Below are positions 24,805 through 42,058 of a DNA stretch of 64,000 bases, piece after piece. Every line of letters begins with the position of its first letter. The stretch's first letter is position 1. The notes beneath the pieces are model-generated. The model saw only the letters and a list, made by a program, of their open reading frames with translations. It ran no database searches and was not told the DNA's origin. The stretch covers positions 806,001 through 870,000 of the forward strand of contig NZ_JACCFL010000001.1 of NCBI RefSeq assembly GCF_013410375.1, read 5' to 3'. This DNA comes from Leifsonia shinshuensis. GTDB taxonomy: Bacteria > Actinomycetota > Actinomycetes > Actinomycetales > Microbacteriaceae. A program made the translations under genes and the position numbers.

Positions 24805-24810
24805 GGCCGG

Positions 24811-26244: not shown

Positions 26245-26429
26245 GGAGGTCAGTGTACGAGATGTCGAAGCGAACCGCCGCGATCCACACTTTCGCACAG
26301 TGCTGAGCCGCACCGCCCTCCCTAGCATGGAGCGGAGTTCCCCCGTCGGCCGCCCCCAGCACGGCCCCCGGCCGGTGGGGGAGCGACACCCGCACCGCAG
26401 CGCGTCTGCACCACCCCCGAAGGAGCCCC

Positions 26430-27527
26430 ATGAAGGCCGTCGTCTTCCGAGAGCCGTCCTCCCCGATCGAGTACACCGACGTGGAGCTCGCCGCCCCCGG
26501 ACCGGGCGAGGTCCGCGTCCGCATCGCCGCGGCCGGCGTCTGCCACTCCGACCTGCACGTCAAGCGCGGGGAGTGGGACGCCCCGGCGCCCCTGGTCATG
26601 GGACACGAGGGCTCCGGCGTCGTGACCGAGCTCGGCGAGGGCGTCAGCTCGCTCGCCATCGGCGACCACGTCGTCCTCAGCTGGGTGCCGCCGTGCGGCG
26701 AGTGCCGGTACTGCCGGTCGGGCCACGAGGCCCGCTGCCAGAAGGTCGCGACCGTGGTCGCTCCGCAGGGCGTGCTCTTCGACGGCACCTCCCGGCTCTC
26801 GCGCGACGGCGCGACCGTCCACCACTACCTCGGCGTCTCGTCGTTCGCCGAGGAGGTCGTGGTCCCGGCCTCCGGCGCGGTGAAGGTGCGCGACGACGCC
26901 CCGCTCGACATCATCGCCGTGGTCGGCTGCGCCGTCGCGACCGGCGTCGGCGCCGTGCTCAACACGGCTGCCGTCGAGCCGGGCTCCACCGTCGCCGTGA
27001 TCGGCTGCGGCGGCGTCGGCCTCAACGTCGTGCAGGGCGCGCGCCTGGCCGGAGCGGAGCGGATCGTCGCGATCGACGTGCTCGCGGACAAGACGCAGAC
27101 CGCGCTGCAGTTCGGCGCCACCGACCGCATCGACGCGTCGCAGGCCGACGCAGTGGAGCAGCTCTTCGACCTGATCCCGGACGGTGTCGACTACGCCTTC
27201 GACGCGATCGGTCGCACCTCCACCACCGAGCAGGCGATCCGGATGCTCGGCCTCGGCGGCGCCGCCGTCATCGTCGGCCTCCCGCCGACGGGTGCGAAGG
27301 CCTCGTTCGAGCCGCTCGTGCTCGCGGAGGCCGACCAGCGCATCCTGGGCTCCAACTACGGCTCGGTGCGCCCCTCCATCGACATCCCCGCGCTGGTCGA
27401 CCGCTACATGGACGGCCAGCTCAAGCTCGACCCCCTGATCTCGGGCCGGCGGCCGCTCGCGGAGGCGGCGGAGGCCTTCGACGACCTCGAGAAGGGCTCC
27501 GTGCTCCGCACCCTGCTCATCCCGTAG
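26430..27527 (+). CDS. Zinc-dependent alcohol dehydrogenase
   Basis: A 365-residue medium-chain dehydrogenase with both zinc sites: catalytic residues in AAGVCHSDLH (Cys near 38) and MGHEGSG (His-Glu near 59-60), and the structural four-cysteine lobe CGECRYCRSGHEARC near residues 90-104. The NAD-binding GCGGVGLN is near residue 192. The length and the insertion after the cysteine lobe resemble class III-like or aryl/aliphatic alcohol dehydrogenases. GAAGGAG precedes the ATG. It oxidises an alcohol to an aldehyde; with an amine-type permease 83 bp downstream and a PucR regulator, an amino-alcohol substrate is plausible but unproven. Confidence 0.92.
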   Translation: MKAVVFREPSSPIEYTDVELAAPGPGEVRVRIAAAGVCHSDLHVKRGEWDAPAPLVMGHEGSGVVTELGEGVSSLAIGDHVVLSWVPPCGECRYCRSGHEARCQKVATVVAPQGVLFDGTSRLSRDGATVHHYLGVSSFAEEVVVPASGAVKVRDDAPLDIIAVVGCAVATGVGAVLNTAAVEPGSTVAVIGCGGVGLNVVQGARLAGAERIVAIDVLADKTQTALQFGATDRIDASQADAVEQLFDLIPDGVDYAFDAIGRTSTTEQAIRMLGLGGAAVIVGLPPTGAKASFEPLVLAEADQRILGSNYGSVRPSIDIPALVDRYMDGQLKLDPLISGRRPLAEAAEAFDDLEKGSVLRTLLIP

Positions 27528-27610
27528 CGCCACCCGATCCCCAGCACCGCGCACCCGCACCCGCACCGCCACCCCCTGCACCCCCGAACCCGACTCACTG
27601 GAGAGCCACC

Positions 27611-29059
27611 ATGACCACCAGTTCCGACCCCCGTCTGGCCGCGCGGCCCGGCAGCCCGACCGACGCCGGACTCCGGCACGGCGTCATGAGCGGACCCGAG
27701 CTGGCCGCGCAGGCGATCGCCAACATCGCGCCCAGCGCCGTCATCGCCTTCACCGCGGCGTCCATCTTCATCGGCGCGGGCAACGGCACGATCTACTCGT
27801 TCGTGCTCGCCACCATCGTCATCCTCTGCGTCGGCTACTGCGTGGTGGTCTTCGCCCGCAAGCACGCGTCGGCCGGCTCGCTCTACACGTACGTCGCCAA
27901 GGGCCTCGGCCCGACCGGCGCCTACCTCGCCGGCGTCACGCTGGTCATCGGCTGCTGGGGCATCGCCGCCGGCTCGCTCGGCGGCGCGGTCTCGTACTTC
28001 AACCAGTTCCTGGCGCTGCTCGGCGTCCCGACCGGTGGCGTCGGCTGGTACGTCGGCCTCGCGATCGTGCTCGGCGGCCTGGCGACGCTGTTCACCATCC
28101 GCGGCATCCGGCTGTCGGCCCGCGTCTCGCTCGTGCTGGAGCTCGTCTCCGTCACGATCATCACCATCCTGCTGATCGCGGCGCTCGTCTGGGCCGGCCC
28201 GAAGGCCTGGGACCCGGCGCAGGTCTTCGCGCAGGGCGCTCCGTTCCAGGGCATCGCCGCCGGCATGGTGCTCGGCATCCTCGGCTTCGTCGGCTTCTCC
28301 TCCGCGGACGCGCTCGGCCGCGAGGCCAAGAACCCGTACACCGCCATCCCGCGCGCGATCATGTGGAGCGCGGTCGTCGTCGGCATCCTCTACGTGTTCG
28401 CCGCCTACACGCAGATCGCCGTGCTGCACGAGCACCTCGCCACCAGCGCCAGCCCGCTGGAGGACATCGCGAAGCTGATCGGCATGCCGTCCTGGTTCGC
28501 GCCCATCCTCACCTTCGGCGTCGGCGCCTCGTTCTTCGCGGTCGTCGTGGCCCCGCTCAACGTCGTCGGCCGGGTCATGTACGTGATGGGCAAGGAGGGC
28601 GTCCTCCCCGAGCGCTTCGGCCGCACCCACGAGCGCCACCTGACCCCGCACCGCGTGCTCCTGGTCGCCGGCCCCGCGGCGATCCTGCTCGACGTGATCC
28701 TGCTGCTGGTCGGCTCCGACCCGATGGACATCACGGTCTGGGTGGACACCTACGGCACCTACGGCTACATGGTCGCCTACGCGCTGGTCGCGATCGCGTG
28801 CATCGCCTACACCCGCCACGCGGGCATCCCGAACCGGCTGGTCTGGGTCTGCGCGGTGGTCGCCGTCGCGGCGATGGCGTACGTGTTCTTCGCGAACATC
28901 TGGCCGGTGCCGGCGTTCCCGCTGAACGTCATCCCGTACCTCTTCCTCCTGACGCTGATCGGGGCGGTGGCGTGGTTCGTGTACCTGGCGCGCCGCCGGC
29001 CGGAGGTCATCCGGAACATCGGCAACACCGAGACCGAGTCGCTGGAGGGGGTCGGCTGA
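27611..29059 (+). CDS. APC family permease linked to alcohol dehydrogenase
   Basis: A 482-residue transporter of the APC superfamily with about twelve helices. LAAQAIANIAPSAVIAFTAA near residue 30, ASAGSLYTYVAKGLGPTGAYL near 85-105 and FVGFSSADALGREAKNPYTA near 225 are family-typical. Its ATG at 27611 has GGAG eight bases upstream. It follows the alcohol dehydrogenase gene by 83 bp of CCCGCACC-rich DNA and ends at a strong terminator. The pair probably imports and oxidises one compound, under PucR control. Confidence 0.9.
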   Translation: MTTSSDPRLAARPGSPTDAGLRHGVMSGPELAAQAIANIAPSAVIAFTAASIFIGAGNGTIYSFVLATIVILCVGYCVVVFARKHASAGSLYTYVAKGLGPTGAYLAGVTLVIGCWGIAAGSLGGAVSYFNQFLALLGVPTGGVGWYVGLAIVLGGLATLFTIRGIRLSARVSLVLELVSVTIITILLIAALVWAGPKAWDPAQVFAQGAPFQGIAAGMVLGILGFVGFSSADALGREAKNPYTAIPRAIMWSAVVVGILYVFAAYTQIAVLHEHLATSASPLEDIAKLIGMPSWFAPILTFGVGASFFAVVVAPLNVVGRVMYVMGKEGVLPERFGRTHERHLTPHRVLLVAGPAAILLDVILLLVGSDPMDITVWVDTYGTYGYMVAYALVAIACIAYTRHAGIPNRLVWVCAVVAVAAMAYVFFANIWPVPAFPLNVIPYLFLLTLIGAVAWFVYLARRRPEVIRNIGNTETESLEGVG

Positions 29060-29078
29060 CCTCCTGCGTGGTTGATGG

Positions 29079-29110
29079 AGCCCCGCGGCGATCCCGATCG
29101 CCGCGGGGCT
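29079..29110 (+). terminator. Strong hairpin terminator after the permease
   Basis: Perfect 15-bp arms, AGCCCCGCGGCGATC and its complement (29079-29093 and 29096-29110), with a two-base centre lie 20 bp after the stop of the permease gene. TTCGTCGTTC follows rather than a clean T-run. This closes the alcohol dehydrogenase operon. Confidence 0.75.
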
Positions 29111-29140
29111 TCGTCGTTCATGCCCAATTCATCTATTTCG

Positions 29141-29170
29141 TCACACAGACGATCTAACAGTGGTTACAAT
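29141..29170 (+). promoter_or_regulatory. Promoter before COG4280 membrane protein gene
   Basis: A good -10 box TACAAT (29165-29170) lies 28 bp before the chosen GTG at 29199; TCACAC (29141-29146) at an 18-bp spacing is a poor -35. The AT-rich stretch 29121-29170 stands out in this GC-rich DNA. The box falls downstream of an in-frame GTG at 29160, which argues against that start. Confidence 0.45.
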
Positions 29171-29198
29171 CTGGGGTACCTCCGTGGAAGGACCCTCC

Positions 29199-30272
29199 GT
29201 GAACTCACTCGCCTTGTTCGTCGCTGTCTTCCTGGCGTGCCTGGTCGAAGCCGTCGAGGCGACCACGATCGTGCTCGCCGCCGGCGCCACCCGCAACTGG
29301 CGCTCGGCGCTGACCGGGACCGCGGCCGGCGTGGTCGTGCTCGCCGTCATCGTCGCCGTCGTAGGCCCGGCGATCACGCTCATCCCGATCGGCTTCCTCC
29401 GGCTGGTGGTCGGCGGTCTCCTGCTCGTCTTCGGAATGCAGTGGATCCGCAAGGCCGTGCTGCGCGCGAGCGGCTACAAGGCCCTGCACGACGAGACGCT
29501 GATCTACGAACGGGAGGTGGCGGAGGCGCGCGCCGCCCGCAAGGAGAGCCGCTTCGGTGTCCGCGACTGGTTCGCCTTCACGCTGTCGTTCAAGGCGGTG
29601 CTGCTGGAGGGGCTGGAGGTCGTCTTCATCGTCCTCACCTTCGGCGCGAACCAGAACCAGATCGGCCTGGCCTCCCTCGCCGCCGTCGCCGCGATCGTCG
29701 TGGTCGTCCTGATCGGCGCCGCGGTGCGCGCCCCGCTGTCGCGCGTGCCGGAGAACACCCTGAAGTTCGTCGTCGGCGTGATGCTGACCTCGTTCGGCCT
29801 GTTCTGGGGTGCGGAGGGCGCGGGAGCCGTCTGGCCGGGCGCCGACCTGGCGCTGCTGGTCATCATCCCCGCCGTCGGCGTGTTCTCGCTGCTGCTCGTC
29901 GCGGTGCTCCGCCGCCGGAAGGCCGCTCAGCTGCGCCGCGAGTCGCGGCCGGTCGGTGCGTCCGAGCCGGCGCCGGTCCTCGTCACGACGACGGGCGACG
30001 CCCAGGGGCACGCTGCCGAGACGGCCGCGGCGCCGGCCTCCGCCACAACCGCCTCCGCCCCGCAGCGGCAGAACGCCGTGGTGCGCGGACTGCGCTCGTT
30101 CGGGCTGTTCTGGTGGGACTTCATCGTCGGCGACGACTGGCAGATCGCGGCCGGAACGGCCGTCGGGCTCGCGATCACGTTCGCGGTGAGCGGCTGGTCG
30201 GGAGCGTGGCTGGTCATGCCGGTCGTCGTGGCGCTCCTCATCCCCTACGGAATCATGCGCGCACTGCGCTGA
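29199..30272 (+). CDS. COG4280 family integral membrane protein
   Basis: A 357-residue membrane protein with about eight hydrophobic segments. It opens ALFVAVFLACLVEAVEATTI, an acidic membrane motif (E-A-V-E-A) repeated in related form as VLLEGLEVVFIVLTFGANQN near residue 140; such paired Glu motifs recall cation transporters, but no function is established. A low-complexity Ala/Thr linker (about residues 265-285) precedes the last helices. The GTG at 29199 has GGAAGG seven bases upstream. It is convergent with a ChrB-like gene, an association I recall from other actinobacteria, hinting at metal or oxyanion handling. Confidence 0.75.
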   Translation: MNSLALFVAVFLACLVEAVEATTIVLAAGATRNWRSALTGTAAGVVVLAVIVAVVGPAITLIPIGFLRLVVGGLLLVFGMQWIRKAVLRASGYKALHDETLIYEREVAEARAARKESRFGVRDWFAFTLSFKAVLLEGLEVVFIVLTFGANQNQIGLASLAAVAAIVVVVLIGAAVRAPLSRVPENTLKFVVGVMLTSFGLFWGAEGAGAVWPGADLALLVIIPAVGVFSLLLVAVLRRRKAAQLRRESRPVGASEPAPVLVTTTGDAQGHAAETAAAPASATTASAPQRQNAVVRGLRSFGLFWWDFIVGDDWQIAAGTAVGLAITFAVSGWSGAWLVMPVVVALLIPYGIMRALR

Positions 30273-30305
30273 GCCCGGCCCCGTCGGAGCGCGCGCCCGG
30301 GGGGA

Positions 30306-30869
30306 TCAGTGCCCCTCCGGCTCCTCCGCGTATACGCGGGCCGCGTACTCCTCCAGCGCTGTGGCGCACGACGCCACGGCCTCCTCCGCCTCGGCGCGCT
30401 TCGGCGCCCCGAAGCGGTCGCGGGTCTGCACCTTCTCCAGCCAGTTGACGAGCTTGGTGTAGTCGACCTCGTTCTCCTCCAACTCGGCGTAGCTGAAGTG
30501 CGACTCCGTGTACTCCTTCTCGAGCTCGCGCAGGAAGCCCTGGCACCGGTCGATGATCTCCTCGTACTCGTCGGTGCGGGCGTCCTGGAACGCCGAGACG
30601 ATGCCGGCGTCACCCGCGAGAACCTCCGAGCGGAGAAGGGCGGCCGTGCCGCCGAGCTCCAGGATCTCGTGCCGCAGCTTGCGCAGCGCCCGCTCGCTCG
30701 CGACGTCGTCGGGAAGGGCGGCGACCGAGTTCTGCAGGTAGATCGCGCCGAGCGCCTTCAGCCGGCGCCACACCGTCGCCCGCAGCCGGGTCGGCTCGGA
30801 GGGGACCCGGTAGACGAGCACGTTCCACGCCGTCCCGGGGCGTTCGGCGGTCTCGGCGTCGTCGGTCAT
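30306..30869 (-). CDS. ChrB N-terminal domain-like protein
   Basis: A 187-residue protein resembling the N-terminal domain of the chromate-resistance regulator ChrB: WNVLVYRVPSEPTRLRATVW followed by RRLKALGAIYLQNSVAALPD (residues 15-54) is the signature, followed by a helical part with YEEIIDRCQGFLRELEKEYT near 105. The C-terminal ChrB domain (CHAD/rhodanese-like) is absent. TAGGAT six bases before the ATG indicates a leaderless transcript. The convergent neighbour is a COG4280 membrane protein. A role in chromate response is family-based; no chrA is present in the window. Confidence 0.75.
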   Translation of the reverse strand: MTDDAETAERPGTAWNVLVYRVPSEPTRLRATVWRRLKALGAIYLQNSVAALPDDVASERALRKLRHEILELGGTAALLRSEVLAGDAGIVSAFQDARTDEYEEIIDRCQGFLRELEKEYTESHFSYAELEENEVDYTKLVNWLEKVQTRDRFGAPKRAEAEEAVASCATALEEYAARVYAEEPEGH

Positions 30870-30939
30870 CCACCAATCCTAGGAGGCGGGCGGCACGCGG
30901 TGGGCCTGCAGCGCGGTGCACCGCGACTCGCACAGAAGC

Positions 30940-30990
30940 TGTTCATTCGAACATTGAGTGTGTGCGAATGAACACCATGTGTGTTACAGT
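30940..30990 (+). promoter_or_regulatory. Inverted DeoR-type operator pair and promoter
   Basis: Two 14-bp sites face each other: TGTTCATTCGAACA at 30940-30953 and TGTTCATTCGCACA read on the minus strand at 30961-30974. They form a larger palindrome with 9-bp arms GTTCATTCG/CGAATGAAC (30941-30973). A -10 box TACAGT (30985-30990) follows, with its -35 region inside the second site, 29 bp before the permease start. DeoR-family proteins bind such paired TTCATTCG-like elements; the deoR gene is second in the operon. Confidence 0.65.
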
Positions 30991-31019
30991 GTGGTCACCC
31001 GGTTCAAAGGAGAGCGCAC

Positions 31020-32465
31020 ATGTCAGCAACCCAGTACGAAGCCTCGACGGTGGAGGAGCCCGATCTCCCCTCCGGTCTCAACCGAGGCTCCATCGGGCTC
31101 GGCGGCACCCTGATGCAGTCGATCGCCCAGATCTCGCCGACCCTCGGCATCTTCTACACGATCGCCTTCACGACCGGCCAGGCCGGTGTCACCGCTCCGC
31201 TGACCTACCTCGCGGCCTTCCTCGTCTGCCTCATCATCGCGGTGCCGATGCGCGGGCTCGCCCGCCACCTCCCCTCCGCCGGCGGCTTCTACACCTACGT
31301 CTCGGCGGGGATCGGCCCGAAGGCCGGATTCATGACCGGCTGGCTCTACGCGATCATGGTCACCGTCGTCCCCGCCGCGCTCGCCGCCTTCACCGGCGCC
31401 GTGCTCCAGGACGAGCTGTCCGGCAAGTACGGGTTCGACGTGCCGTGGTGGGTCTATGCGGTCGTCATCCTCGCGATCTGCTTCGCGTGCGCCTACCGCG
31501 GGATCGTCATCTCGATCAAGTTCCTCGTCGTGATGACCTGCTTCGAGATGGTCGTCGGACTCGGGCTAGCGCTTTCCGGCCTCATCCACCCCGGCCCCGG
31601 CGGCGTGAACCTAAAGGGTTTCAACCCGGCCAACATCACCGACGGCTCCGGCTTCTTCCTCGCGATCGTCCTCTCGATCTTCGCGTTCACCGGCTTCGAG
31701 AGCGCCGCCGCCGTCGGCGAGGAGTCGCGCGACCCGAAGCGGATCGTGCCCAAGGCGATCATCGGCTCGCTCACCCTCATCGGCATCTTCTACGTCGTCA
31801 CCGCCTGGGGCCTGCAGATCGGCTGGGGCACCAGCGACCTCGGCAAGCTCGCGTCGTCGCCCACCGCTCCGGCGTTCGTGCTCGCTGACCGCCTGTTCGA
31901 CGGCGCTTCGATCATCATCCTGATCGCACTCGTCAACTCCGGCCTCGGCGTCTGCATCGCCTGCACCACCAGCGCGACCCGCACGATCTTCGGGATCGCC
32001 CGCACCGGTGCCCTCCCGTCCGTGCTCGCGACCGTTCAGCGGAAGCACCGCACGCCGGTCGTCGCGGTCTACGTGCAGTCGATCGTCGCGGTGGTGGTCT
32101 GCCTCGCCGTCGGTCTCCCGCTCGGCCCGTACAACCTCTTCAACCTGCTCGGGACCGCGGGGACCTTCGTCTACATCCCGATCTTCATCCTGATGAACGT
32201 CGCCGCGTTCCTCTTCTTCCGGCGGCACCACCCCGACGAGTTCAGCGTCTGGGCGTACGTGGTCGCGCCGATCGTGTCCACGGTCGCGCTACTGCTGATC
32301 GCCTACTACAGCATCGTTCCGCTCCCGGACTTCCCGGTGCTGCTGGCACCGTTCATCGCCGTCCTCTACGTGGTCATCGGCCTTGCCGTCCTGATCGGCC
32401 GCAACCTGCGTCCGGGGAATCGGGCCTGGATGGCACGCGCAGGGGAGTTGCCTGAGGTTGACTGA
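31020..32465 (+). CDS. APC family permease heading the DeoR-GMC-SIS-ROK operon
   Basis: A 481-residue transporter with about twelve helices. TLMQSIAQISPTLGIFYTIA near residue 30, SAGGFYTYVSAGIGPKAGFM near 84 and FAFTGFESAAAVGEESRDPK near 222 mark the APC superfamily. AAAGGAG precedes the ATG at 31020. It heads a five-gene operon with a DeoR regulator, a GMC flavoenzyme, a SIS-domain protein and a ROK kinase. E. coli FrlA, the fructoselysine transporter, is also an APC permease placed beside a SIS deglycase and a kinase, so import of an Amadori compound or amino-sugar conjugate is an attractive inference. Confidence 0.88.
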   Translation: MSATQYEASTVEEPDLPSGLNRGSIGLGGTLMQSIAQISPTLGIFYTIAFTTGQAGVTAPLTYLAAFLVCLIIAVPMRGLARHLPSAGGFYTYVSAGIGPKAGFMTGWLYAIMVTVVPAALAAFTGAVLQDELSGKYGFDVPWWVYAVVILAICFACAYRGIVISIKFLVVMTCFEMVVGLGLALSGLIHPGPGGVNLKGFNPANITDGSGFFLAIVLSIFAFTGFESAAAVGEESRDPKRIVPKAIIGSLTLIGIFYVVTAWGLQIGWGTSDLGKLASSPTAPAFVLADRLFDGASIIILIALVNSGLGVCIACTTSATRTIFGIARTGALPSVLATVQRKHRTPVVAVYVQSIVAVVVCLAVGLPLGPYNLFNLLGTAGTFVYIPIFILMNVAAFLFFRRHHPDEFSVWAYVVAPIVSTVALLLIAYYSIVPLPDFPVLLAPFIAVLYVVIGLAVLIGRNLRPGNRAWMARAGELPEVD

Positions 32466-32501
32466 TCCCGGACCGCACCACCAGAGCCTCAGGAGACCAC
32501 G

Positions 32502-33260
32502 ATGAACGCCGAAACCCGCCAGCAGCAGATCCTCGAGCAGCTCGCCCGCCGCGGCGAGGCCACGATCGCGGAGCTCAGCGCCCGGTTCGACGTGTCGGAG
32601 ATGACCATCCGCCGCGACCTCAACCAGCTCGCCGCCGCCGGCGTCGTCGTCCGCACCCACGGCGGGGCCGCGCCTGCGGCGAGCGGGAGCTTCGAGCCGC
32701 CGTTCGGTCTGCGCTCGCGCACCAACAGCGAGGCGAAGCGGCAGATCGCCATCGCCGTCGCCAAGCAGGTGCTCGACGGCCAGACCGTCATCCTCGACGG
32801 CGGGACGACCGGCCTGGCCATCGCGGAGGAGCTCGTGGGCAGGAACATCACGGTGTGCGCCCTGAACCTCCGCGTCGCCGACATTCTCTCCGCGGAGTCC
32901 GCCACCCGCGTCATGATCCCGGGCGGGCTCATCCGGACGGGCGAGTCGAGCATTGTCGGCTCCGAGGCGGAACGTGCGCTGCAGAACTTCCGCTACGACC
33001 TCTACGTGATGACGGCCTCCGCCGTCGACGCCGCCGCCGGGTTCACCGAGTGGAATCTCGAGGACGCCGCGATCAAGCGCGCCAGCCTCGCCGCGTCACG
33101 ACGGACCATCGCCGCCGTCGACTCCTCCAAGTTCGGCCGCGAGGCGTTCGCCCGCATCTGCGGCCTCGACCAGGTCGCCGCCGTCGTCACCGACGCGGCG
33201 ATCAGCTCAGAACAGAAGCGCGACTTCTCGGTGTCCGGCACCGAGCTGCTGATCGCCTGA
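32502..33260 (+). CDS. DeoR family transcriptional regulator
   Basis: A 252-residue regulator with a DeoR HTH (residues 6-57: ILEQLARRGEATIAELSARF, then MTIRRDLNQLAAAGVVVRTH) and a DeoRC sugar-phosphate-sensing domain with VILDGGTTGLAIAEEL near residue 92 and DLYVMTASAVDAAAGFTEWN near 166. The family responds to phosphorylated sugars, which matches a kinase in the same operon. It lies 36 bp after the permease gene and 13 bp before the GMC gene. It probably autoregulates the operon through the paired sites at 30940-30974. Confidence 0.92.
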   Translation: MNAETRQQQILEQLARRGEATIAELSARFDVSEMTIRRDLNQLAAAGVVVRTHGGAAPAASGSFEPPFGLRSRTNSEAKRQIAIAVAKQVLDGQTVILDGGTTGLAIAEELVGRNITVCALNLRVADILSAESATRVMIPGGLIRTGESSIVGSEAERALQNFRYDLYVMTASAVDAAAGFTEWNLEDAAIKRASLAASRRTIAAVDSSKFGREAFARICGLDQVAAVVTDAAISSEQKRDFSVSGTELLIA

Positions 33261-33273
33261 CCCAAGGAACACC

Positions 33274-34803
33274 ATGAACACCACACCATCCCTTCCCACC
33301 CGCGTCGATACCCTCGTCATCGGCGGCGGCACCGGGGGCGCCGCGTTCGCGGGGACCCTCGCCGCGCACAGCGACGAGACCGTCCTCCTGGTGGAGGCCG
33401 GCCCCGACTACGGGGCGTTCGACCGGAGCGCATGGCCGGCCGACATGCTCGACGCGCGCTCGATCCCGCTGTCGCACGACTACGACCTCCGGACCGCCCG
33501 GTCGTCCGGCGAGGGGGCGCTCGATCTTCCGCGTGCCCGGATCATCGGCGGCTGCTCGGCGCACAACGGCTGCACCGCCTCGGTCGGGGCGCGGTTCGAG
33601 TACGACGAGTGGGCCGGGCTCGGCAACCCGGGCTGGTCGGCCGACGAGGTCGCTCCGCTGCTCGACGCGGTCCGGGAGCGCTTCCGCGTCCGCCGCTACA
33701 CGATGCCGGAGCTCACGCCGCCGCAGCGCGCATTCGTGGAGGCGGGGGTGGCGGCGGGCCTTCCGTTCGCCGACGACCTGGACGACCTGGAGGCCGCGGA
33801 GGGGATCGGCCCGATGCCGGTCAACATCTCGGACGGCGTGCGCTGGAACAGTGCCTTCGCCTTCCTGGACCCGGTGCGCGACCGCCCCAACCTGACCATC
33901 GCGGGAGGCGTGGCCGTCACCGGACTCAGCTTCGACGGCACGCGGGTCACCGGAGCGTTCGTCACGCACGCGTCCGGCGTCGCCCACATCGACGCGGGGC
34001 GGGTCGTGCTCGCCGCCGGCGCCTACCACTCGCCCGCGATTCTGCTGCGCTCGGGCGTCGGTCCAGCGGCCGAGCTGACGGCGCTCGGCATACCGGTGGT
34101 CGCCGACGTGCCCGGCGTCGGCAAGCACCTGCTCGATCATGAGTGCGTGCAACTCGACTTCGCCGGCCGCCCCGGCCTTGTCGACGAGCTCGCCGCGCTG
34201 GACTGGAACCCGGATGAGCAGACTGTCGGCCGCGCCCGCTCCAGCGTCTGCGACGACGGCCCCTACGACATCCACGTGTTCATGGTCGCCGGCGCCAACA
34301 GTGGCCACCCCGGGCTGCCGCCGATCACCCTTTACGGCGGGGCGATGCGCGCCCGCTCCGAGGGCAGCGTCACGCTCGGCCTCGGCCTCGATGTCACCGA
34401 ACCGGTGATCGACCACCGTTACGGGACGGATCCCGACGGCCACGACCGCACCGTCCTGCGCGAGGCGCTGGACCTGCTCGAGTCGATGGTGTCGCAGCCG
34501 GGGCTGGCCGAGGTGCTCGGCGAGCGCGTCGGGAAGGCCGACCCGCTGGACGACATCGTCAATTACTGCCATCCGGCGGGCACCTGCAAGATGGGGCCGT
34601 CCACCGACCCGCTCGCGGTGGTCGACAACGACGGTGCTGTGCACGGGGTGACCGGGCTCTACGTCGCGGACGCGTCGATCATGCCGACGATCACCCGGGG
34701 CAACATCAACCTGCCGACCGCGATGATCGGGGTGAACGTCGCGAACCGCCTGCTCGGCGCGCGCGTCCTCGACGCCGCGGGCACGACCGCGGACGCGCGC
34801 TGA
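33274..34803 (+). CDS. GMC family FAD-dependent oxidoreductase
   Basis: A 509-residue flavoprotein of the glucose-methanol-choline family. The FAD-binding VIGGGTGGAAFAG is at residues 15-27, ARIIGGCSAHNGCTASVGAR near 88 matches the first GMC signature, GAYHSPAILLRSGVG near 250 the second, and CHPAGTCKMG near 430 contains the catalytic His; RGNINLPTAMIG near 473 closes the FAD pocket. It could oxidise an alcohol or sugar hydroxyl, as choline dehydrogenase or actinobacterial glycoside 3-oxidases do. Its placement between a DeoR regulator and sugar-phosphate genes suggests a sugar-derived substrate. No signal peptide. Confidence 0.9.
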   Translation: MNTTPSLPTRVDTLVIGGGTGGAAFAGTLAAHSDETVLLVEAGPDYGAFDRSAWPADMLDARSIPLSHDYDLRTARSSGEGALDLPRARIIGGCSAHNGCTASVGARFEYDEWAGLGNPGWSADEVAPLLDAVRERFRVRRYTMPELTPPQRAFVEAGVAAGLPFADDLDDLEAAEGIGPMPVNISDGVRWNSAFAFLDPVRDRPNLTIAGGVAVTGLSFDGTRVTGAFVTHASGVAHIDAGRVVLAAGAYHSPAILLRSGVGPAAELTALGIPVVADVPGVGKHLLDHECVQLDFAGRPGLVDELAALDWNPDEQTVGRARSSVCDDGPYDIHVFMVAGANSGHPGLPPITLYGGAMRARSEGSVTLGLGLDVTEPVIDHRYGTDPDGHDRTVLREALDLLESMVSQPGLAEVLGERVGKADPLDDIVNYCHPAGTCKMGPSTDPLAVVDNDGAVHGVTGLYVADASIMPTITRGNINLPTAMIGVNVANRLLGARVLDAAGTTADAR

Positions 34804-34814
34804 GGAGACCGATC

Positions 34815-35852
34815 ATGACGACGCTCACCCCCTTCGAAGAGGACATCCTGGAGCAGCCCGCCGCCCTGCGCCGACTCGTGACGGCGGGCCCGGCGCCGGA
34901 GCTCGCCGCCCTCGGCGGACGCCGCTGGGACCGGATCGTGTTCACCGGCATGGGCAGCTCGCACTTCGCGAGCATCCCGACCTGGCGCAGCGCGGTCAGC
35001 GCCGGCCACGACGCCTGGCGCGTCGACGCCGGGGAGCTGCTCGACGCGCCGGGGCTCCTGACGCCCGGCACGCTGCTCGTCGCGACCTCGCAGTCCGGCG
35101 CCAGCGGTGAGGTGGTCGAGCTGCTCGACCGGCTGGACTCCGGTCGGCTCCGTACCGGCGCCGTGGTCGGGATCGCCGCTGACGCCGCCAGCCCGCTCGC
35201 GCTCCAGTCCGACGTTTACCTTCCGCTCCTCAGCGGGGACGAGGCGACGGTGAGCACGAAGAGCTACCTCAACACCCTGGCCGTGCACCGCCGCCTCGCC
35301 GCCGTGCTCGCCGGCGAGGAGCCGGCAACCGTGGAGGGTGAGATCGCCGCGGCGGCCGACGCCGTCGAGGCCCAGCTCGGGCGCGAAATAGACGCCGGCC
35401 TCGCAGCCCGCGTGCTGGAGCCCGCGCGCCCACGGCTGGCGGCCGTCGCCAAGCGCGACGACGCCGCGACCGCCCTACTCGCCGGGCTTATCACGAAGGA
35501 GTCGTCGAAGGTCGCCATCGAGGCCTACGTCGGTGGCCAGTTCCGGCACGGACCGTTCGAGCTCGCCGGACCCGGGATGACGGCGTTCCTGTACGGCGCC
35601 TACGAGGCCGACGCCGACGAGAGCACCGCCCGGCTGGCCGCCGACCTCGTGGACAGCGGCGCGCACGTGGTCGTCGTCGGCGACCTCCGTGTCGACGGTG
35701 CGACGATCGTCCGAACGCCTGACGGGCCGTCGCTGGCCCGCCTCGCGACGGGAGCAGTCGTGGCCGAGCTCGTCGCCGTCGACCTGGCGCGCACGAACGG
35801 TGTCGTGCCCGGCGCGTTCGCGTTCGGCAGCAAGGTGACGACGACGCTGTGA
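34815..35852 (+). CDS. SIS-domain sugar isomerase/deglycase (FrlB/AgaS-like)
   Basis: A 345-residue cytoplasmic protein made of two SIS folds without the glutaminase domain of GlmS. EEDILEQPAALRRLV opens it; VFTGMGSSHFASIPTWR near residue 43 and LLVATSQSGASGEVVELLDR near 93 form the sugar-phosphate pocket; STKSYLNTLAVHRRL near 146 and FRHGPFELAGPGM near 241 match the GlmS/AgaS/FrlB group. Such proteins isomerise or deaminate amino-sugar phosphates or remove the amine from fructosamine 6-phosphates. The next gene, a ROK kinase, overlaps it by four bases (GTGA), so the kinase and this enzyme are made together. Confidence 0.88.
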   Translation: MTTLTPFEEDILEQPAALRRLVTAGPAPELAALGGRRWDRIVFTGMGSSHFASIPTWRSAVSAGHDAWRVDAGELLDAPGLLTPGTLLVATSQSGASGEVVELLDRLDSGRLRTGAVVGIAADAASPLALQSDVYLPLLSGDEATVSTKSYLNTLAVHRRLAAVLAGEEPATVEGEIAAAADAVEAQLGREIDAGLAARVLEPARPRLAAVAKRDDAATALLAGLITKESSKVAIEAYVGGQFRHGPFELAGPGMTAFLYGAYEADADESTARLAADLVDSGAHVVVVGDLRVDGATIVRTPDGPSLARLATGAVVAELVAVDLARTNGVVPGAFAFGSKVTTTL

Positions 35853-36841
35853 GCGAGGACGTGAGCGCGGAAGCCGCGAGCGTGGACGCGTCAGGGCGCG
35901 GATCCGATATCGCGATCGGGGTGGACCTCGGCGGTACCGGGACCAGGCTGGTCGCTCTCGACGGCTACGGCGACACCGTCGCGCAGCTGGTCGTCCCGAC
36001 GCCCGGCGCGGTCCCCGCGGACGCCGCGGTCGACTTCCTGGTGGAGCGGGTCGCCTCGCTCGCCGGAGAGGCGAACGTCCGCTCGATCGGGATCGGCGCG
36101 AGCGGGCCGATCGACGCGGACGGCGTCATCCGGAACGACGACACCCTCCCCGCCTTCACGGGCGTCGACCTCGCCGGGGCGCTCGCCGCCGCCTTCGGCG
36201 CGCCCGTCGCAGTCGACAACGACGCTGTGACGGCCGCCATCGGGGAGGCGGTCGCGGGCGCCGGCCGGCCGTTCCGGAGCGTGCTCATGCTGACCCTCGG
36301 CACCGGCGTCGGCGTGGCCGCGCTGGTGGAAGGCGGACCGGTCCGCGGCGCCGACGGTGTCCACCCGGAAGCCGGTCACCTCAGCCTGTCCGGCCGGACG
36401 GCGCCCTGTTACTGCGGCCGGAGCGCGTGCTTCGAGCAGGTCGGGTCGCGCACGGCGTTGCAGCGCTCGGCGAGCGCGCTGCTCGCCCGGCCGAGCGGAG
36501 GCCCGCAGGACATCCGGACGGTGTTCGACCGCGCTCTCGACGGAGACGCGGCCGCTGCGGCGCTGTTCGACGACTACGGCAGCGGGATCGCCGACGGCCT
36601 CCTGGATCTGCTCACCGTGCACCGCTCAGCGGGCGTCGTGCTCGGTGGCAGCGCGGCTTCCTACTTCGCCGCGTACGCTCCCGCGCTCCTCGCGCGGCTG
36701 GGCGAGGTCGCGACGTACTCCGCGACGCCGCCGGTGCGGGTGTCGGAGCTCGGCGACCTCGGCGGCGCCCTCGGGGCGGCGATCCTCGGGTCCCGGCGCC
36801 CGGACCGCAGCTCGTGGCTCATGCTCGGCCGTGGGCGGTAG
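35849..36841 (+). CDS. ROK family sugar kinase
   Basis: A 330-residue kinase of the ROK family: the phosphate-binding motif GVDLGGTGTRLVALD is near residues 25-39, VDNDAVTAAIGEA near 124 has the catalytic Asp region, LGTGVGVAALVEGG near 151 is the second phosphate loop, and HPEAGHLS with CYCGRSACFEQ near 171-196 is the ROK zinc motif. No HTH is present, so it is an enzyme rather than a repressor. It starts at a GTG overlapping the SIS gene's stop. It likely phosphorylates the imported sugar or amino sugar at C6 for the SIS enzyme. E. coli fructoselysine kinase is of the unrelated PfkB fold. Confidence 0.9.
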   Translation: MSEDVSAEAASVDASGRGSDIAIGVDLGGTGTRLVALDGYGDTVAQLVVPTPGAVPADAAVDFLVERVASLAGEANVRSIGIGASGPIDADGVIRNDDTLPAFTGVDLAGALAAAFGAPVAVDNDAVTAAIGEAVAGAGRPFRSVLMLTLGTGVGVAALVEGGPVRGADGVHPEAGHLSLSGRTAPCYCGRSACFEQVGSRTALQRSASALLARPSGGPQDIRTVFDRALDGDAAAAALFDDYGSGIADGLLDLLTVHRSAGVVLGGSAASYFAAYAPALLARLGEVATYSATPPVRVSELGDLGGALGAAILGSRRPDRSSWLMLGRGR

Positions 36842-36860
36842 GTGCGCTCCCGCTCCTCTG

Positions 36861-37520
36861 TTACTCCGCGTCGTCCTCCACCACCACCGCCCGCAGCGGC
36901 GCCCCGTCTCTGCCCGCGATCGGCAGCGGCAGCCCCACGAACTGCGGCGCGCTCGCCGTGATCCGGTCGAGCCCGGTCAGGTTCTCGATGATGAGCCCGC
37001 CCGCGCCGAGGAAGACGTCGTGGAACGGGAGGCTCGGGGCCGGGTCGTCGCGTGGCGTCTCGTCCGGGTTGAGCGCGTCGACGCCGACCACGGTGACGCC
37101 CGCATCGAGCAGCGCCGAGGCGACCCCGGCGTCCAGGAACGGGTGGTCGAGGTATCCCGGCTCGTCGAACAGCGCCGACCAGCCCGTGCGGAACAGCACG
37201 ATGGTCCCCGGCTCGACCTCCCGGAGAGCGTCGCGCACGTCCTCCGCCCGGATCCGCGTCCGCGGCGGGAGGCCGTTCACGTCCACCACGAGCGCCGGCC
37301 CGATCAGCCGGCCGAGATCGACGGCGTCGATCGTCGCCCCGCCCTCGACGGTGTGCGACGGCGCGTCCACGTGTGTGCCGGTGTGGCTGCCCAGCTCCAG
37401 GCTCAGCACGCTCACTCCGGCCTCCGCGATCGTCACGGCCGGTTCCACGCGGACCTCCGGGTCGCCGGGGAAGACCGTCATCCCGCCGCGGAGGGGATGG
37501 CTCAGGTCGACCACCCGCAT
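36861..37520 (-). CDS. Cyclase family metal-dependent hydrolase (kynurenine formamidase-like)
   Basis: A 219-residue protein of the cyclase family. RVVDLSHPLRGGMTVFPGDP opens it, and the HTGTHVDAPSH motif near residues 46-56 supplies the metal ligands; FRTGWSALF near 110 and VGVDALNPDE near 145 are also family-typical. Members hydrolyse N-formyl groups, cyclic amides or isatin. The ATG directly follows the TAG stop of the upstream gene, so translation is coupled. It is the last gene of an operon with an agmatinase-type ureohydrolase and NCS1 permease, pointing to breakdown of a cyclic or acylated guanidino or nitrogen compound. Confidence 0.85.
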   Translation of the reverse strand: MRVVDLSHPLRGGMTVFPGDPEVRVEPAVTIAEAGVSVLSLELGSHTGTHVDAPSHTVEGGATIDAVDLGRLIGPALVVDVNGLPPRTRIRAEDVRDALREVEPGTIVLFRTGWSALFDEPGYLDHPFLDAGVASALLDAGVTVVGVDALNPDETPRDDPAPSLPFHDVFLGAGGLIIENLTGLDRITASAPQFVGLPLPIAGRDGAPLRAVVVEDDAE

Positions 37521-37910
37521 CTAGGCCTCCTCCCGCGGGGACAGGTGCTCGTGCACGCAGATCCAGGCGCCGTCGCGGCGCTGCATGACGATGGTCTCGC
37601 GTTCCCGCACGGTCGTGCTGCCGTCGCCGTCGGCGAGTTCGGTCTCGACGTCGTGCGTGAAGATCGCGACGTCGTCGCCCGCGAACTGCACGCGGCGCCC
37701 GGTCGAGCGGCAGCCGAGCACGCGGAAGCCGTCGCGCTCCCAGTCGTCCCACGCCGCCTCGTATTCGGCGCGCGACTCCAGGCGGACCGGGTGCGTGTGC
37801 AGGACGAAGGTGGCGTCGTCGGCGAAGCCCGCGAAGTAGGCGTCGCGGCGGTGGCGGCCGAAGTCGTCGATGATGCGGTCGACGGCGGCGAGGACGTCCT
37901 GCTCGCTCAT
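37521..37910 (-). CDS. SnoaL/NTF2-like protein
   Basis: A 129-residue protein with the small NTF2-like cone fold seen in SnoaL and DUF4440 proteins: a helical start (VLAAVDRIIDDFGRHRRDAY), FADDATFVLHTHPVRLESRA near 30, and beta strands ending IVMQRRDGAWICVHEHLSPR. The ATG at 37910 overlaps the stop of the NCS1 permease gene as ATGA, and its own TAG touches the next ATG, so it is tightly placed in the operon. It may be a small isomerase or hydrolase acting on the same substrate; the fold alone does not tell. Confidence 0.82.
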   Translation of the reverse strand: MSEQDVLAAVDRIIDDFGRHRRDAYFAGFADDATFVLHTHPVRLESRAEYEAAWDDWERDGFRVLGCRSTGRRVQFAGDDVAIFTHDVETELADGDGSTTVRERETIVMQRRDGAWICVHEHLSPREEA

Positions 37911-39508
37911 GCCCCGGCCTCCGGCGCCTCGATGGTGCGGGACTCCAGCAGCTGGGCCTTCGCCCGCCGCGACGCGTGGGCGCGGGCGGCCGCCGAGCGC
38001 TCGTCCAGGTGGATGGGCGGCACGGTCGCGTCCGCGGAGCGCACCCCGCGGGGGCCGTCCGGCCCGAACACGTACCGCGGCTCCGGGAAGATCGCCAGCA
38101 GCACGCCGTAGAGGACGCCGGCTACGACGACGCTCGACAGCAGGCTCAGGTCGATGCCGCCGGCGAGGTCGCTGAACGGTCCGACGATGATCGGCGGGTA
38201 GTTCGCGAACAGCAGGCCCACCACAGCGGCGACGATCCACGCCGTCATCCCGCGCCAGTTCACGCCGGCGGCGAACCAGTACCGGCCGCCGGTCTCGCCG
38301 CGGTTGAACACCTGCAGGTCCGACGGGTCGTAGAAGCCGCGGCGCACGACGTAGCCGATGGTCATGATGACCATCCACGGCGTCGTCGTGACCACGATCG
38401 CGCCGACGAAGGCGTTCACGGTCCCGAGCAGGTCGAACACCAGACGGCCGACCAGGATGAAGAGGAATGCGATGGTCCCGATGAAGATCGTCGCCTGCAC
38501 CCGGCTGAACCGCGGCACGACCGACGAGAAGTCCAGCCCGGTGCCGTAGAGCGACGTCGTGCCGGTCGACAGACCGCCGATGAAGGCCACCACGAGCAGC
38601 AGCAGCGCGTACCAGAGCGGCGAGACGTGGATGAGCGAGACGACGTAGTCCGACTTGCCGAAGACGAGGGTCGCGGTGGCGACGCCGAACAGCAGCGGGA
38701 TGAGTCCGAGGCCCTGGCCGAGGATGGTCGCGCCGATCAGCTTGCGCGGCTTGGTCGCCCGCGGGATGTAGCGGGACCAGTCGCCGAGGAACGCGCCGAA
38801 AGAGATCGGGTTGGCCATCACGATGAGCGCCGCGGCGATGAAGGTCGGCCAGAACGCCCCGCCGATCGCGAGCGCCTTGGGTCCGGGGTCGTAGCCGGCG
38901 TTGAAGACGCCGGAGTAGGCCACGATGGCGAGCAGGATCAGCGCCGTGTTGGCGAAGACGGCGATCTTGTTGACCAGCAGCATGAACTGGAAGCCGTAGA
39001 TCACCACGACGATCACGATCAGGCCGATGACCGCGTAGATCCCCAGCCGCAGCCCGACCGAGTCGGGCACCCCGGCGAGCCGGGTCAGCGCGCCGACGAT
39101 CGCGTCGCCGGACACCCACACGGAGATCGAGTAGAACGCGATCGCGGTGAGCAGCGACAGGAAAGAGCCGACGATCCGGCCGCGGACGCCGAACAGCGCG
39201 CCGGAGGAGACGGCGTTGTTGGTGCCGGTCTTCGGGCCGAACAGTGCCATCGGCGCCAGGAACGCGATGCCGACGGCGACGCCGAGCACCGTGGCGGCCA
39301 CGGCCTGCCAGAACGACAGCCCGAGGGCGATGGGGAAGGTGCCGAGCAGGATGGTGGCGAACGTGTTCACACCGCCGAACTGGATGCGGGCCAGGTCGAG
39401 CCAGTTCGAGGTGCGGTCGGCGTCCGGGATCGTGTCGATCCCGTGGGCCTCCACTTCCGTGATCCTGGGGCGCGGGTTGAGGGCAGCGGTGACGTCGTCG
39501 TCGGACAT
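37907..39508 (-). CDS. NCS1 family permease (cytosine/purine/allantoin type)
   Basis: A 533-residue transporter with about twelve helices. DRTSNWLDLARIQFGGVNTFA near residue 31 and GALFGVRGRIVGSFLSLLTA near 103 are typical of the nucleobase-cation symporter-1 family, as is SFGAFLGDWSRYIPRATKPR near 228. NCS1 members carry cytosine, purines, allantoin, hydantoins or thiamine. It follows the ureohydrolase gene by 46 bp and overlaps the SnoaL-like gene by four bases. With a ureohydrolase and a cyclase alongside, the cargo may be a cyclic ureide or guanidino compound. Confidence 0.9.
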   Translation of the reverse strand: MSDDDVTAALNPRPRITEVEAHGIDTIPDADRTSNWLDLARIQFGGVNTFATILLGTFPIALGLSFWQAVAATVLGVAVGIAFLAPMALFGPKTGTNNAVSSGALFGVRGRIVGSFLSLLTAIAFYSISVWVSGDAIVGALTRLAGVPDSVGLRLGIYAVIGLIVIVVVIYGFQFMLLVNKIAVFANTALILLAIVAYSGVFNAGYDPGPKALAIGGAFWPTFIAAALIVMANPISFGAFLGDWSRYIPRATKPRKLIGATILGQGLGLIPLLFGVATATLVFGKSDYVVSLIHVSPLWYALLLLVVAFIGGLSTGTTSLYGTGLDFSSVVPRFSRVQATIFIGTIAFLFILVGRLVFDLLGTVNAFVGAIVVTTTPWMVIMTIGYVVRRGFYDPSDLQVFNRGETGGRYWFAAGVNWRGMTAWIVAAVVGLLFANYPPIIVGPFSDLAGGIDLSLLSSVVVAGVLYGVLLAIFPEPRYVFGPDGPRGVRSADATVPPIHLDERSAAARAHASRRAKAQLLESRTIEAPEAGA

Positions 39509-39554
39509 GCGGGTTCCCTTCGGGGGCGGGTGGCGGAATCGGGTGGGGGTGTTC

Positions 39555-40544
39555 TCAGCGGGAGAGGGCGGAGGCGTCGGCCGGCTGCCCGGCCGAGGTC
39601 TCCCTGTGCCGCAGCGCGAGCAGCGACACCAGGTCGTAGGCGAGGTGGGAGGCGGCCACGCCGGTGAGCTCGGCGTGGTCGTAGGCGGGCGCGACCTCCA
39701 CGACGTCTGCGCCGATCAGGTTGAGACCCACGAAGCCGCGGATGATCTCCAGCAGCTCCCGGCTGGTGACGCCGCCGGCCTCCGGGGTGCCGGTGCCCGG
39801 AGCGTGGGCCGGGTCCATGACGTCCACGTCGATGGAGATGTAGAGGGGGCGGTCGCCGATCCGGTCGCGGAGCTTGGCGACGACCTCGTCCACGCCCTGC
39901 CGGTAGACGTCGGCGCTGGTGACGATGCCGAAGCCGAAGCGGTGGTCGTCGTCGAGGTCCTTCTTGCCGTAGAGCGGGCCGCGGGTGCCGACGTGGCTGA
40001 GCGCCTCGGTGTCGAGGATGCCCTCCTCGAACGCGCGGCGGAAGGGCGTGCCGTGCGTGAACTCCGCGCCGAAGTAGGTGTCCCAGGTGTCCAGGTGCGC
40101 GTCGAAGTGCAGCAGCGCGACCGGCCCGTGGCGCTCGGCGGCGGCGCGGAGCAGCGGGAGCGAGATGGTGTGGTCGCCGCCGAGAGTGACGAGGCGCGTC
40201 CCGTCGGCGGTCAGGTCGTACGCCGCCGACTGGACGGTCTCGATCGCCTCCGCGATGTCGAACGGGTTGACCGCGATGTCGCCGGCGTCGGCCACCTGGG
40301 TGAGCTCGAACGGGGAGACGTCGAGCGCCGGGTTGTAGGGGCGCAGCAGGCGGGAGGCCTCGCGGATGTGGTTCGGGCCGAAGCGCGCGCCCGGCCGGTA
40401 GGAGACGCCGGTGTCGAACGGGACGCCCGCTACGACGATGTCGGCGCGGCCCACCTGGTCGAGCCGCGGGAGCCGGGCGAAGCCGTCCCGGCCGGCGTAG
40501 CGGGGTGTGCGCGACGAGTCGATGGGGCCGACGTTCTGCGGCAT
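39555..40544 (-). CDS. Agmatinase-type ureohydrolase
   Basis: A 329-residue manganese enzyme of the arginase/agmatinase family. The metal-binding motifs are GGDHTIS near residue 133, HFDAHLDTW near 157 and [14 protein letters not shown] near 240; [20 protein letters not shown] near 40 is the agmatinase-type N-terminal loop. The enzyme releases urea from a guanidino compound. AAGGAGGT precedes the ATG at 40544. The SpeB group also includes guanidinobutyrase, guanidinopropionase and guanidine hydrolase, and the NCS1 permease downstream fits one of those better than agmatine. It heads the leftward operon, divergent from an XRE-cupin regulator. Confidence 0.9.
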
Positions 40545-40703
40545 GCAACCTCCTTGGTGCGGTACTGACGGGTGGTGCTGGTGCGATTCGGGTTGCCTGT
40601 TATGGAACCTTTGTTGCATGAGAGGCTACAACGCGATCCGTCCTCCGTCAACGCGCTCGCGGGATTCGAGAGCGCGGGCGGGCGGAACGGCTACCGTGGA
40701 CCC

Positions 40704-41282
40704 ATGCGCCCGATGCCCCTCGAACCCGCCGACCGCCGCGTGGCGATCGGCCCCCGGCTGCGCGCGGCGCGGCGGGCGCAGCAGCTGACGATCGACGAGG
40801 TGGCGCGGATCACCGGCCTGACCAAGGGGTTCCTGTCGCGGGTCGAGCGCGACATGACCTCCCCGAGCGTGAGCTCGCTGATCAGCCTGTGCGACGTGCT
40901 CTCCATCCCGGTCGGCTCGCTGTTCGAGGAGCCGGAGGTGCAGCTGGTCCCGGCCGGCACCGGCGCGAAGGTCAACCTCGGCGGCGTCGACACCGAGGAG
41001 CGGCTGCTGTCGCCGCGTTCCGAGTCGCGCGTGCAGGTGATCCGCTCGGTCATCCAGTCCGGCGGCCACGGCGGCGAGGAGCTCTACGCGGTGGCGGCGG
41101 ACGTGGACGTACTGCACGTCCTCCGCGGCGAGATCGAGGTCCGCTTCTCCGACCGCGAGTGGCGGCTCGGCCCGGGCGACAGCCTCACCTTCAGCGGCCA
41201 CGAGCCGCACAGCTGGCGTGTGCTCAGCGATGACGGCGCCGAGGTGCTGTGGGTGCTGGTGCCGGCGCTCTGGAGCGCGTGA
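40704..41282 (+). CDS. XRE family regulator with cupin sensor domain
   Basis: A 192-residue regulator: an N-terminal HTH (residues 14-70; LRAARRAQQLTIDEVARITG with LTKGFLSRVERDMTSPSVSS) and a C-terminal cupin_2 barrel (HGGEELYAVAADVDVLHVLR, EWRLGPGDSLTFSGHEPHSW) that would bind a small ligand. TACCGT lies six bases before the ATG at 40704, a leaderless arrangement. It faces the ureohydrolase-NCS1 operon and is its likely regulator; PuuR, the putrescine regulator, has the same layout. TTGCAT-type motifs (ATGCAA at 40542-40547, TTGCAT at 40614-40619) in the gap are weak operator candidates. Confidence 0.88.
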   Translation: MRPMPLEPADRRVAIGPRLRAARRAQQLTIDEVARITGLTKGFLSRVERDMTSPSVSSLISLCDVLSIPVGSLFEEPEVQLVPAGTGAKVNLGGVDTEERLLSPRSESRVQVIRSVIQSGGHGGEELYAVAADVDVLHVLRGEIEVRFSDREWRLGPGDSLTFSGHEPHSWRVLSDDGAEVLWVLVPALWSA

Positions 41283-41292
41283 CGCCCGTGCG

Positions 41293-41892
41293 CTAAGCCT
41301 CCGCTGCGCCGGTCTGATTGAAGAGGTAGTACACGCTCAGCGCGGTGAACCCGACCAGCATCGCCGGGGCGTAGACGATGCCGATGATCGTCAGCAGCGG
41401 GTAGAACACCGTACCCGCCCCGAACCGACGAAGCGCCCCCCTGCGCTCGCGCGGATCGAGCCGGCCCTCGCGCACCTCGATGAGCGTGACCCGGCCGAAG
41501 AGCAGCGTGAAGGCGACCGCGAACCCGGTCGACACGCCGCCGTACAGCACCGCCGCCACACGCACGTCCGCGGCGCTGCCGTCCGCGAGCGCCGCCGACA
41601 GCGTGGCCGTGGTGAAGGGGATCGCGGTGACGAACATCAGCAGGATGAGGTTCCAGAACAAGAGGAGCCGGTCGACGGTGACCACGAGCCGCAGGACGGA
41701 GTGGTGGTTGACCCAGATGACCCCGATCACGAGGAAGCTGACGACGTACGCGGCGAACGACGGCCAGGCGGCCGCCACCTGGGCCAGCAGGCTCGTTCCG
41801 TTTCCCGGTGCGAGGTGGAGGTCGAGCACCAGGAGGGTGATCGCGACGGCGAGCACCCCGTCGCTGAACGCCTCGAGCCTCGCTTTCGACAC
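41293..41892 (-). CDS. TMEM175-family potassium channel-like protein
   Basis: A 199-residue membrane protein with about six helices. RLEAFSDGVLAVAITLLVLD near residues 5-24 is the TMEM175 signature (RxxxFSD), and a second conserved segment NHHSVLRLVVTVDRLLLFWN follows near 62-81. Bacterial members form tetrameric potassium channels. The GTG at 41892 is chosen because GAGGAGGAA precedes it; the open frame 20 codons upstream lacks this. A TTGACA promoter lies at 41923-41952. The gene converges with the XRE-cupin gene with a ten-base gap and is not obviously linked to neighbours. Confidence 0.88.
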   Translation of the reverse strand: MSKARLEAFSDGVLAVAITLLVLDLHLAPGNGTSLLAQVAAAWPSFAAYVVSFLVIGVIWVNHHSVLRLVVTVDRLLLFWNLILLMFVTAIPFTTATLSAALADGSAADVRVAAVLYGGVSTGFAVAFTLLFGRVTLIEVREGRLDPRERRGALRRFGAGTVFYPLLTIIGIVYAPAMLVGFTALSVYYLFNQTGAAEA

Positions 41893-41922
41893 GGTTCCTC
41901 CTCTGGGCTCGCTCAGTGGCTC

Positions 41923-41952
41923 ATCTAAGCCAGGCGGGGTGGCGGCTGTCAA
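41923..41952 (-). promoter_or_regulatory. Promoter of the TMEM175-like gene
   Basis: Read on the minus strand: a perfect -35 TTGACA (41947-41952), an 18-bp spacer and TTAGAT (41923-41928), about 30 bp before the GTG start. The -35 is consensus; the -10 is weak. Confidence 0.5.
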
Positions 41953-42058
41953 CCGATGACGCGGGAGTGCTGGACCTCGGCGCCGCCGCGATGTGCCGTC
42001 CGCGCGCCCCGGGCTCGTCGGGATATCGGCACCGACTTCCGGGACGTTCTCTCCGGTC

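Follow-up and report, generated by a model that had tools for sequence, protein, structure and literature searches.

The frl operon of Escherichia coli, through which fructoselysine is used, combines a permease, a SIS protein (FrlB), a sugar kinase and a regulator of its own; it also encodes an epimerase, FrlC, and has no oxidase. The Aga system for galactosamine and N-acetylgalactosamine has a regulator of the DeoR family and, in E. coli, a SIS protein, and its pathway needs a tagatose-6-phosphate kinase and an aldolase. SIS proteins are also represented by the isomerase domain of GlmS and by NagB-II (S. maltophilia, 7kqa). PMC8262997 describes the catabolism of the sugar-amine conjugate santhopine in Arthrobacter, a related actinobacterium, by a separately named set, the soc genes. 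The window analysed here is a stretch of 64,000 nucleotides from Leifsonia shinshuensis (NZ_JACCFL010000001.1, positions 806,001 to 870,000), in which five tightly packed genes at 31020–36841 encode an APC permease, a DeoR regulator, a GMC flavoprotein, a SIS protein and a ROK kinase. The first four roles of the frl operon are thus represented, but the regulator and kinase are of the DeoR and ROK types, rather than the GntR and PfkB types ascribed to frl in an initial annotation of this DNA. That annotation proposed a variant of the frl pathway, with import, oxidation or other modification, phosphorylation and cleavage of a glycated amine. The reading favoured here, with less than even confidence, is that the operon is induced by its substrate and serves the catabolism of an amino-polyol, in which a 2-aminohexitol would be taken to fructose 6-phosphate.

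Relationships of the SIS protein

Structure comparison, profile comparison and active-site residues all place the SIS protein nearest to the GlmS isomerase domain and far from FrlB, although FrlB scores at least as well against it as certain structures of glucosamine-6-phosphate deaminases. The catalytic Glu, His and C-terminal Lys of GlmS (E488, H504 and K603; roles in PMC9272926) are kept as E229, H245 and K340, the conservation of K340 being judged against GlmS alone. FrlB has the equivalents of E229 and H245, but not the lysine. The same order of relatives is returned by hhalign against single E. coli proteins (GlmS E 3e-9, AgaS 9e-7, FrlB 4e-6), the contrast in these values being weak. 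Likeness to GlmS and NagB-II extends over the whole length of the SIS fold, and a TKSY stretch is common with 7kqa. However, identity is about 18–24%, there is no glutaminase domain, the gene stands beside that for a GMC oxidase, and the scores are far under the NCBIfam equivalog cut-offs (NF001484, 56.7 of 381 bits; NF046059, 44.6 of 430 bits). By these sequence comparisons the protein is related to the GlmS/glucosamine-6-phosphate deaminase II type and belongs to no named equivalog; it is probably an amino-sugar-phosphate deaminase/isomerase.

The initial fructosamine proposal is therefore not supported by the test set for it, the grouping of the SIS protein, and a FrlB-type deglycase is rejected by structure, profile and residues. 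Membership of AgaS was likewise rejected, as the Aga-type cluster of this genome sits elsewhere (L061). In a tree of SIS relatives, the proteins of loci with a major facilitator superfamily (MFS) sugar porter and those of loci with APC and GMC genes form clear clades. The outgroups of this tree (E. coli FrlB, GlmS and AgaS) have long branches, which make it unfit for placing the family among SIS enzymes; the placement therefore rests on structure, profile and residues. Metagenome sources disagree on the name of the protein, some calling it FrlB-like and others GlmS-like. None of the terms for FraB catalytic residues was found in PMC12051030. The weakest SIS match (33%) lies in L057:7848-12232, where an ABC transporter, a sulfatase and a PfkB kinase are encoded nearby. 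In a distant relative, at L054:9679-10512, the neighbours of a SIS-ROK pair are an aldo-keto reductase and a DeoC that passes its NCBIfam cut-off, which hints at a different sugar product there.

Association with alcohol oxidation

Comparisons were made across 40 loci: 37 came from scanning genomes with a seed alignment of SIS relatives, and the others are L062, L105 and L107. A gene was counted as present if tblastn placed it no more than 6.5 kb from the SIS gene, at identity thresholds of 55% (APC), 60% (GMC), 38% (ROK) and 30% (DeoR); absences in L035, L036 and L046 are partly unsure, since the contig is short or ends there. The complete five-gene set is found at half of the loci (20 of 40) and is not a chance array. 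Its order varies: in Subtercola and Rathayibacter DeoR precedes APC, and Arthrobacter and Pseudarthrobacter have SIS-ROK-APC-GMC. It is therefore the set that selection has kept, not only a frozen block.

An APC permease is present at 23 loci, and every one of these has an alcohol oxidoreductase gene nearby, drawn from three unrelated families. In 20 cases this is the same GMC as in the window. Of the others, L036 has a choline-dehydrogenase-like GMC after ROK (32% identity to that of the window), L038 a zinc alcohol dehydrogenase with a full open frame just before APC, and L051 a Fe-ADH_2 protein before APC. Since the APC type is always accompanied in this way, oxidation can be taken as a step of the pathway. 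In three loci with GMC and SIS (L033, L034 and L035) an ABC sugar-type importer replaces APC. The loci of the MFS type (L043-L049 and L105) have DeoR, SIS, ROK and a sugar porter, and none of the eight has a GMC, which agrees with an oxidation product that can itself be imported as an amino sugar. A glycosidase clue for the MFS type was sought near L105 and L045, in five proteins that are large or flank these loci; they gave a transposon-type ATPase, a zinc-finger domain or no Pfam match. Six distant or odd relatives (L040, L050, L053, L054, L056 and L057) were set aside in the substrate argument, except for the kinase of L040.

In Specibacter cremeus the GMC and SIS sequences form a single polypeptide of 867 residues, fused in frame with no stop between them (L023:7435-10038, P0142). 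The GMC gene of L034, evidently the same strain as L117, reads as two pieces. In the GMC protein of the window, H97 aligns with H99 of choline oxidase, the flavin-linking histidine, and is at least 90% conserved, while H433 and N477 are invariant and match the His-Asn pair of that enzyme. The trimethylammonium-binding residues of choline oxidase are not kept: W61 corresponds to M58, E312 to C291 and W331 to no aromatic residue, in an alignment read by eye. An identity as choline oxidase was rejected on this basis, and the betA model scores 211 of 732 bits. Outside the loci described here, many relatives of the GMC protein match it at 64–70% identity. Within the family, the next-nearest GMC proteins, at 41–44% identity, are in five further genomes. 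Their neighbours in three of these (L100-L102) are mixed, including glutamine synthetase-like, amidohydrolase, amidase and Rieske proteins, and give no substrate clue.

Proposed pathway and alternatives

In the favoured scheme, the APC permease would import a cationic amino-alditol, most likely a 2-amino-2-deoxyhexitol (2-amino-2-deoxy-D-mannitol or -glucitol). PMC10231450 and PMC8382821 describe 2-amino-2-deoxy-D-mannitol as an intermediate of azasugar biosynthesis, so such hexitols occur in nature. The cytoplasmic GMC flavoenzyme may then oxidise the C1 alcohol, beside the carbon that carries the nitrogen, to the aldehyde, giving a 2-amino-2-deoxyhexose that the ROK kinase would phosphorylate at C6. 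Like the isomerase half of GlmS, the SIS protein would use aldose-ketose isomerisation toward deamination, releasing ammonia and fructose 6-phosphate, which would enter glycolysis directly. The DeoR protein is predicted to keep the operon repressed in the absence of substrate or product. An Aga-type cluster (amidohydrolase, DeoR, class II aldolase, PfkB, ROK and SIS; L061) is present separately in the genome, as is a strong Glucosamine_iso homologue of the NagB-I family, therefore the operon probably serves another purpose than these. The ROK protein of that separate cluster is a further likeness between Aga and the operon, but Pfam finds neither a tagatose-6-phosphate kinase nor the aldolase among the five operon genes. 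As a general type, a previously undescribed oxidase-first pathway for natural aminopolyols, the open-chain azasugar precursors, in which the amino sugar made by a cytoplasmic flavin oxidase passes to a GlmS-derived deaminase (one polypeptide with it in one species), is a tentative and somewhat doubtful proposal.

The oxidised carbon is the weak point of the favoured scheme. The dehydrogenases that replace GMC at L038 and L051 are polyol or secondary-alcohol types in their usual action, and this would give fructosamine from a 1-aminohexitol. L038 also leaves a gap, having no visible DeoR or ROK within its 19 kb. The replacing dehydrogenases lead to the main rival, an unlikely one, which is the closest surviving form of the initial proposal. 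From a 1-amino-1-deoxyhexitol of the glucamine or mannopine type, or a 1-(aminoacyl)-hexitol, GMC would oxidise the secondary alcohol at C2 to give a fructosamine, ROK would phosphorylate C6, and the SIS protein would release the amine and glucose 6-phosphate. FrlA, an APC-type protein according to the initial annotation, is annotated as a fructoselysine carrier, and the sharing of E229 and H245 with FrlB also accords with this route. The position of the SIS protein nearest to GlmS argues against it, as does the use of sugar transporters by variant loci. Furthermore, PMC8262997 has Arthrobacter isolates carrying soc genes for santhopine, an Amadori opine, and in its main text SIS, ROK and GMC were sought by term and not found.

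It is distinctly unlikely that the operon serves a plain amino sugar, with free glucosamine, mannosamine or a close relative imported and then degraded by ROK and SIS, and GMC having a side job such as use of an alternative alcohol or detoxification. The SIS type fits this, as do the MFS-type relatives that lack GMC; however, the oxidoreductase is never absent from the APC type and is fused to the SIS protein in one species, therefore a side job for GMC is improbable. A remoter prospect is a sugar that bears its amine at another position, such as kanosamine, or one derived from an aminoglycoside; here GMC would oxidise a hydroxyl of the ring or side chain before the amine is lost. A distant relative of GMC, 7dve (E 3.8e-8), is annotated as 6'''-hydroxyparomomycin C oxidase, but choline and HMF oxidases are far nearer to GMC, and chemistry of the GlmS type requires an amine at C1 or C2. 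Catabolism of the fructoselysine type without a prior alditol step, as first proposed, is very improbable. The permease, SIS protein and kinase could fill three roles of frl, but the SIS grouping and K340 speak against it, and GMC is left unexplained. The permease matches FrlA at only 26% identity over 150 residues (E 5e-7), which by itself settles little. ROK is the sole Pfam match of the kinase, which therefore differs from the PfkB-fold FrlD. Taken as a whole, the initial interpretation is supported in part.

Distribution

Among 398 genomes of the family, APC (E 1e-120 or better) is found in 8, GMC (at least 70% identity) in 9 and SIS (E 1e-40 or better) in 10, as nested sets. In G133, the one GMC genome that lacks APC, the gene next to GMC is for an ABC-type importer, and the SIS genome without GMC (G677) has an MFS sugar porter. 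Several of these genomes evidently come from strains already represented among the named loci, and they were not added to the 40. GMC is present in 7 of 297 genomes of the order, one at 43% only, and in 4 of 394 of the class, the genome of the window being included in both counts. Within the genus, 2 of 28 genomes have the SIS gene at high identity. The cassette thus has a patchy occurrence and probably passes from one lineage to another. It is also seen in a Rhodoferax metagenome-assembled genome, on one metagenome contig (L036), which could be misbinned.

Operon organisation and regulation

The open reading frames and Pfam families (Table 1) agree with a single tight array, as first described, and all five families are confirmed. 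The gaps between genes are 36, 13 and 11 bases in order, and the SIS and ROK genes overlap by 4 bases. The permease start lies within a longer GTG reading frame from 30981, but in alignments with several homologues the match begins at the residue encoded at 31020. None of the five proteins reaches an NCBIfam cut-off (for the permease, among the best 25 of 27 matches), therefore none has a curated specific name.

Table 1. Features of the five-gene operon and its upstream region (window positions).
Feature	Position	Strand	Size	Characteristics
Operator-like inverted repeat, candidate DeoR site	30940..30974		35 bases	14-base arms, one mismatch, 7-base spacer
APC-superfamily permease	31020..32465	+	481 aa	AA_permease E 4.2e-45; proposed substrate import
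DeoR-family regulator	32502..33260	+	252 aa	DeoRC E 6.7e-43, HTH_DeoR 5e-21
GMC-family flavin oxidase or dehydrogenase	33274..34803	+	509 aa	GMC_oxred_N 1e-28, GMC_oxred_C 3e-26; proposed alcohol oxidation
SIS protein	34815..35852	+	345 aa	SIS Pfam E 1e-10; GlmS-isomerase-like
ROK-family sugar kinase	35849..36841	+	330 aa	ROK E 7.1e-48

The best 25 of 27 NCBIfam matches of the permease are general amino-acid, amine and ethanolamine permeases. The nearest model to the DeoR protein is AgaR (183 bits, cut-off 260), and glucokinase is the nearest solved relative of the kinase (E 1.6e-27), in which the first 18 or so residues are not conserved in most relatives, judging from alignment starts. The inverted repeat stands 45 bases upstream of the permease start. 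The regions upstream of 12 orthologous operons were compared, the same-genus copy L062 being left out. The 8-mer ATGTTCGA is found on one strand or the other in 6 of them, whereas the commonest 8-mer in 60 shuffled sets occurs in 3 (36 sets), 4 (23 sets) or 5 (1 set). The repeat is a fair candidate for an operator. A sigma-70-like promoter was not found in 30850-37000, nor any Rfam match in 24000-43000.

The flanking DNA contains other units. Upstream, at 24811-29059, a PucR-type regulator, a zinc alcohol dehydrogenase and a second APC permease form another small amine/alcohol catabolic unit. Downstream is a divergent cluster at 36861-41282, with cyclase/arylformamidase-like and SnoaL-like proteins, an NCS1 permease, an agmatinase-family ureohydrolase above the TIGR01230 cut-off and an XRE-cupin regulator; this has the look of an independent catabolic unit of the guanidino or nucleobase type. 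Beyond it on the - strand are a TMEM175-family potassium channel gene (41293-41952) and a gene for a 530-residue protein (42059-43651), which has a hydrophobic signal-like N-terminus, repeated segments seen by eye and no Pfam match.

Implications

Among the papers listed from the open-access PMC library, none was recognised as a description of this gene set or of aminohexitol catabolism, an absence that is limited in reach. The predicted route thus has no described counterpart found and may be a new version of amino-sugar catabolism, its substrate being inferred. The cassette is compact and patchy (8 to 10 of 398 family genomes) and has only generic family names in the sources consulted. Its combination of SIS protein, APC permease and kinase invites an frl-like annotation, and this case warns against such naming. 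The proposed chemistry is to oxidise, phosphorylate and deaminate. If the substrate is an aminopolyol, the operon would represent a biological sink for such compounds and a new flavin enzyme for amino alcohols, and soil actinobacteria could feed on azasugar-related compounds. If it is instead a 1-aminohexitol, opine-like catabolism would be extended.

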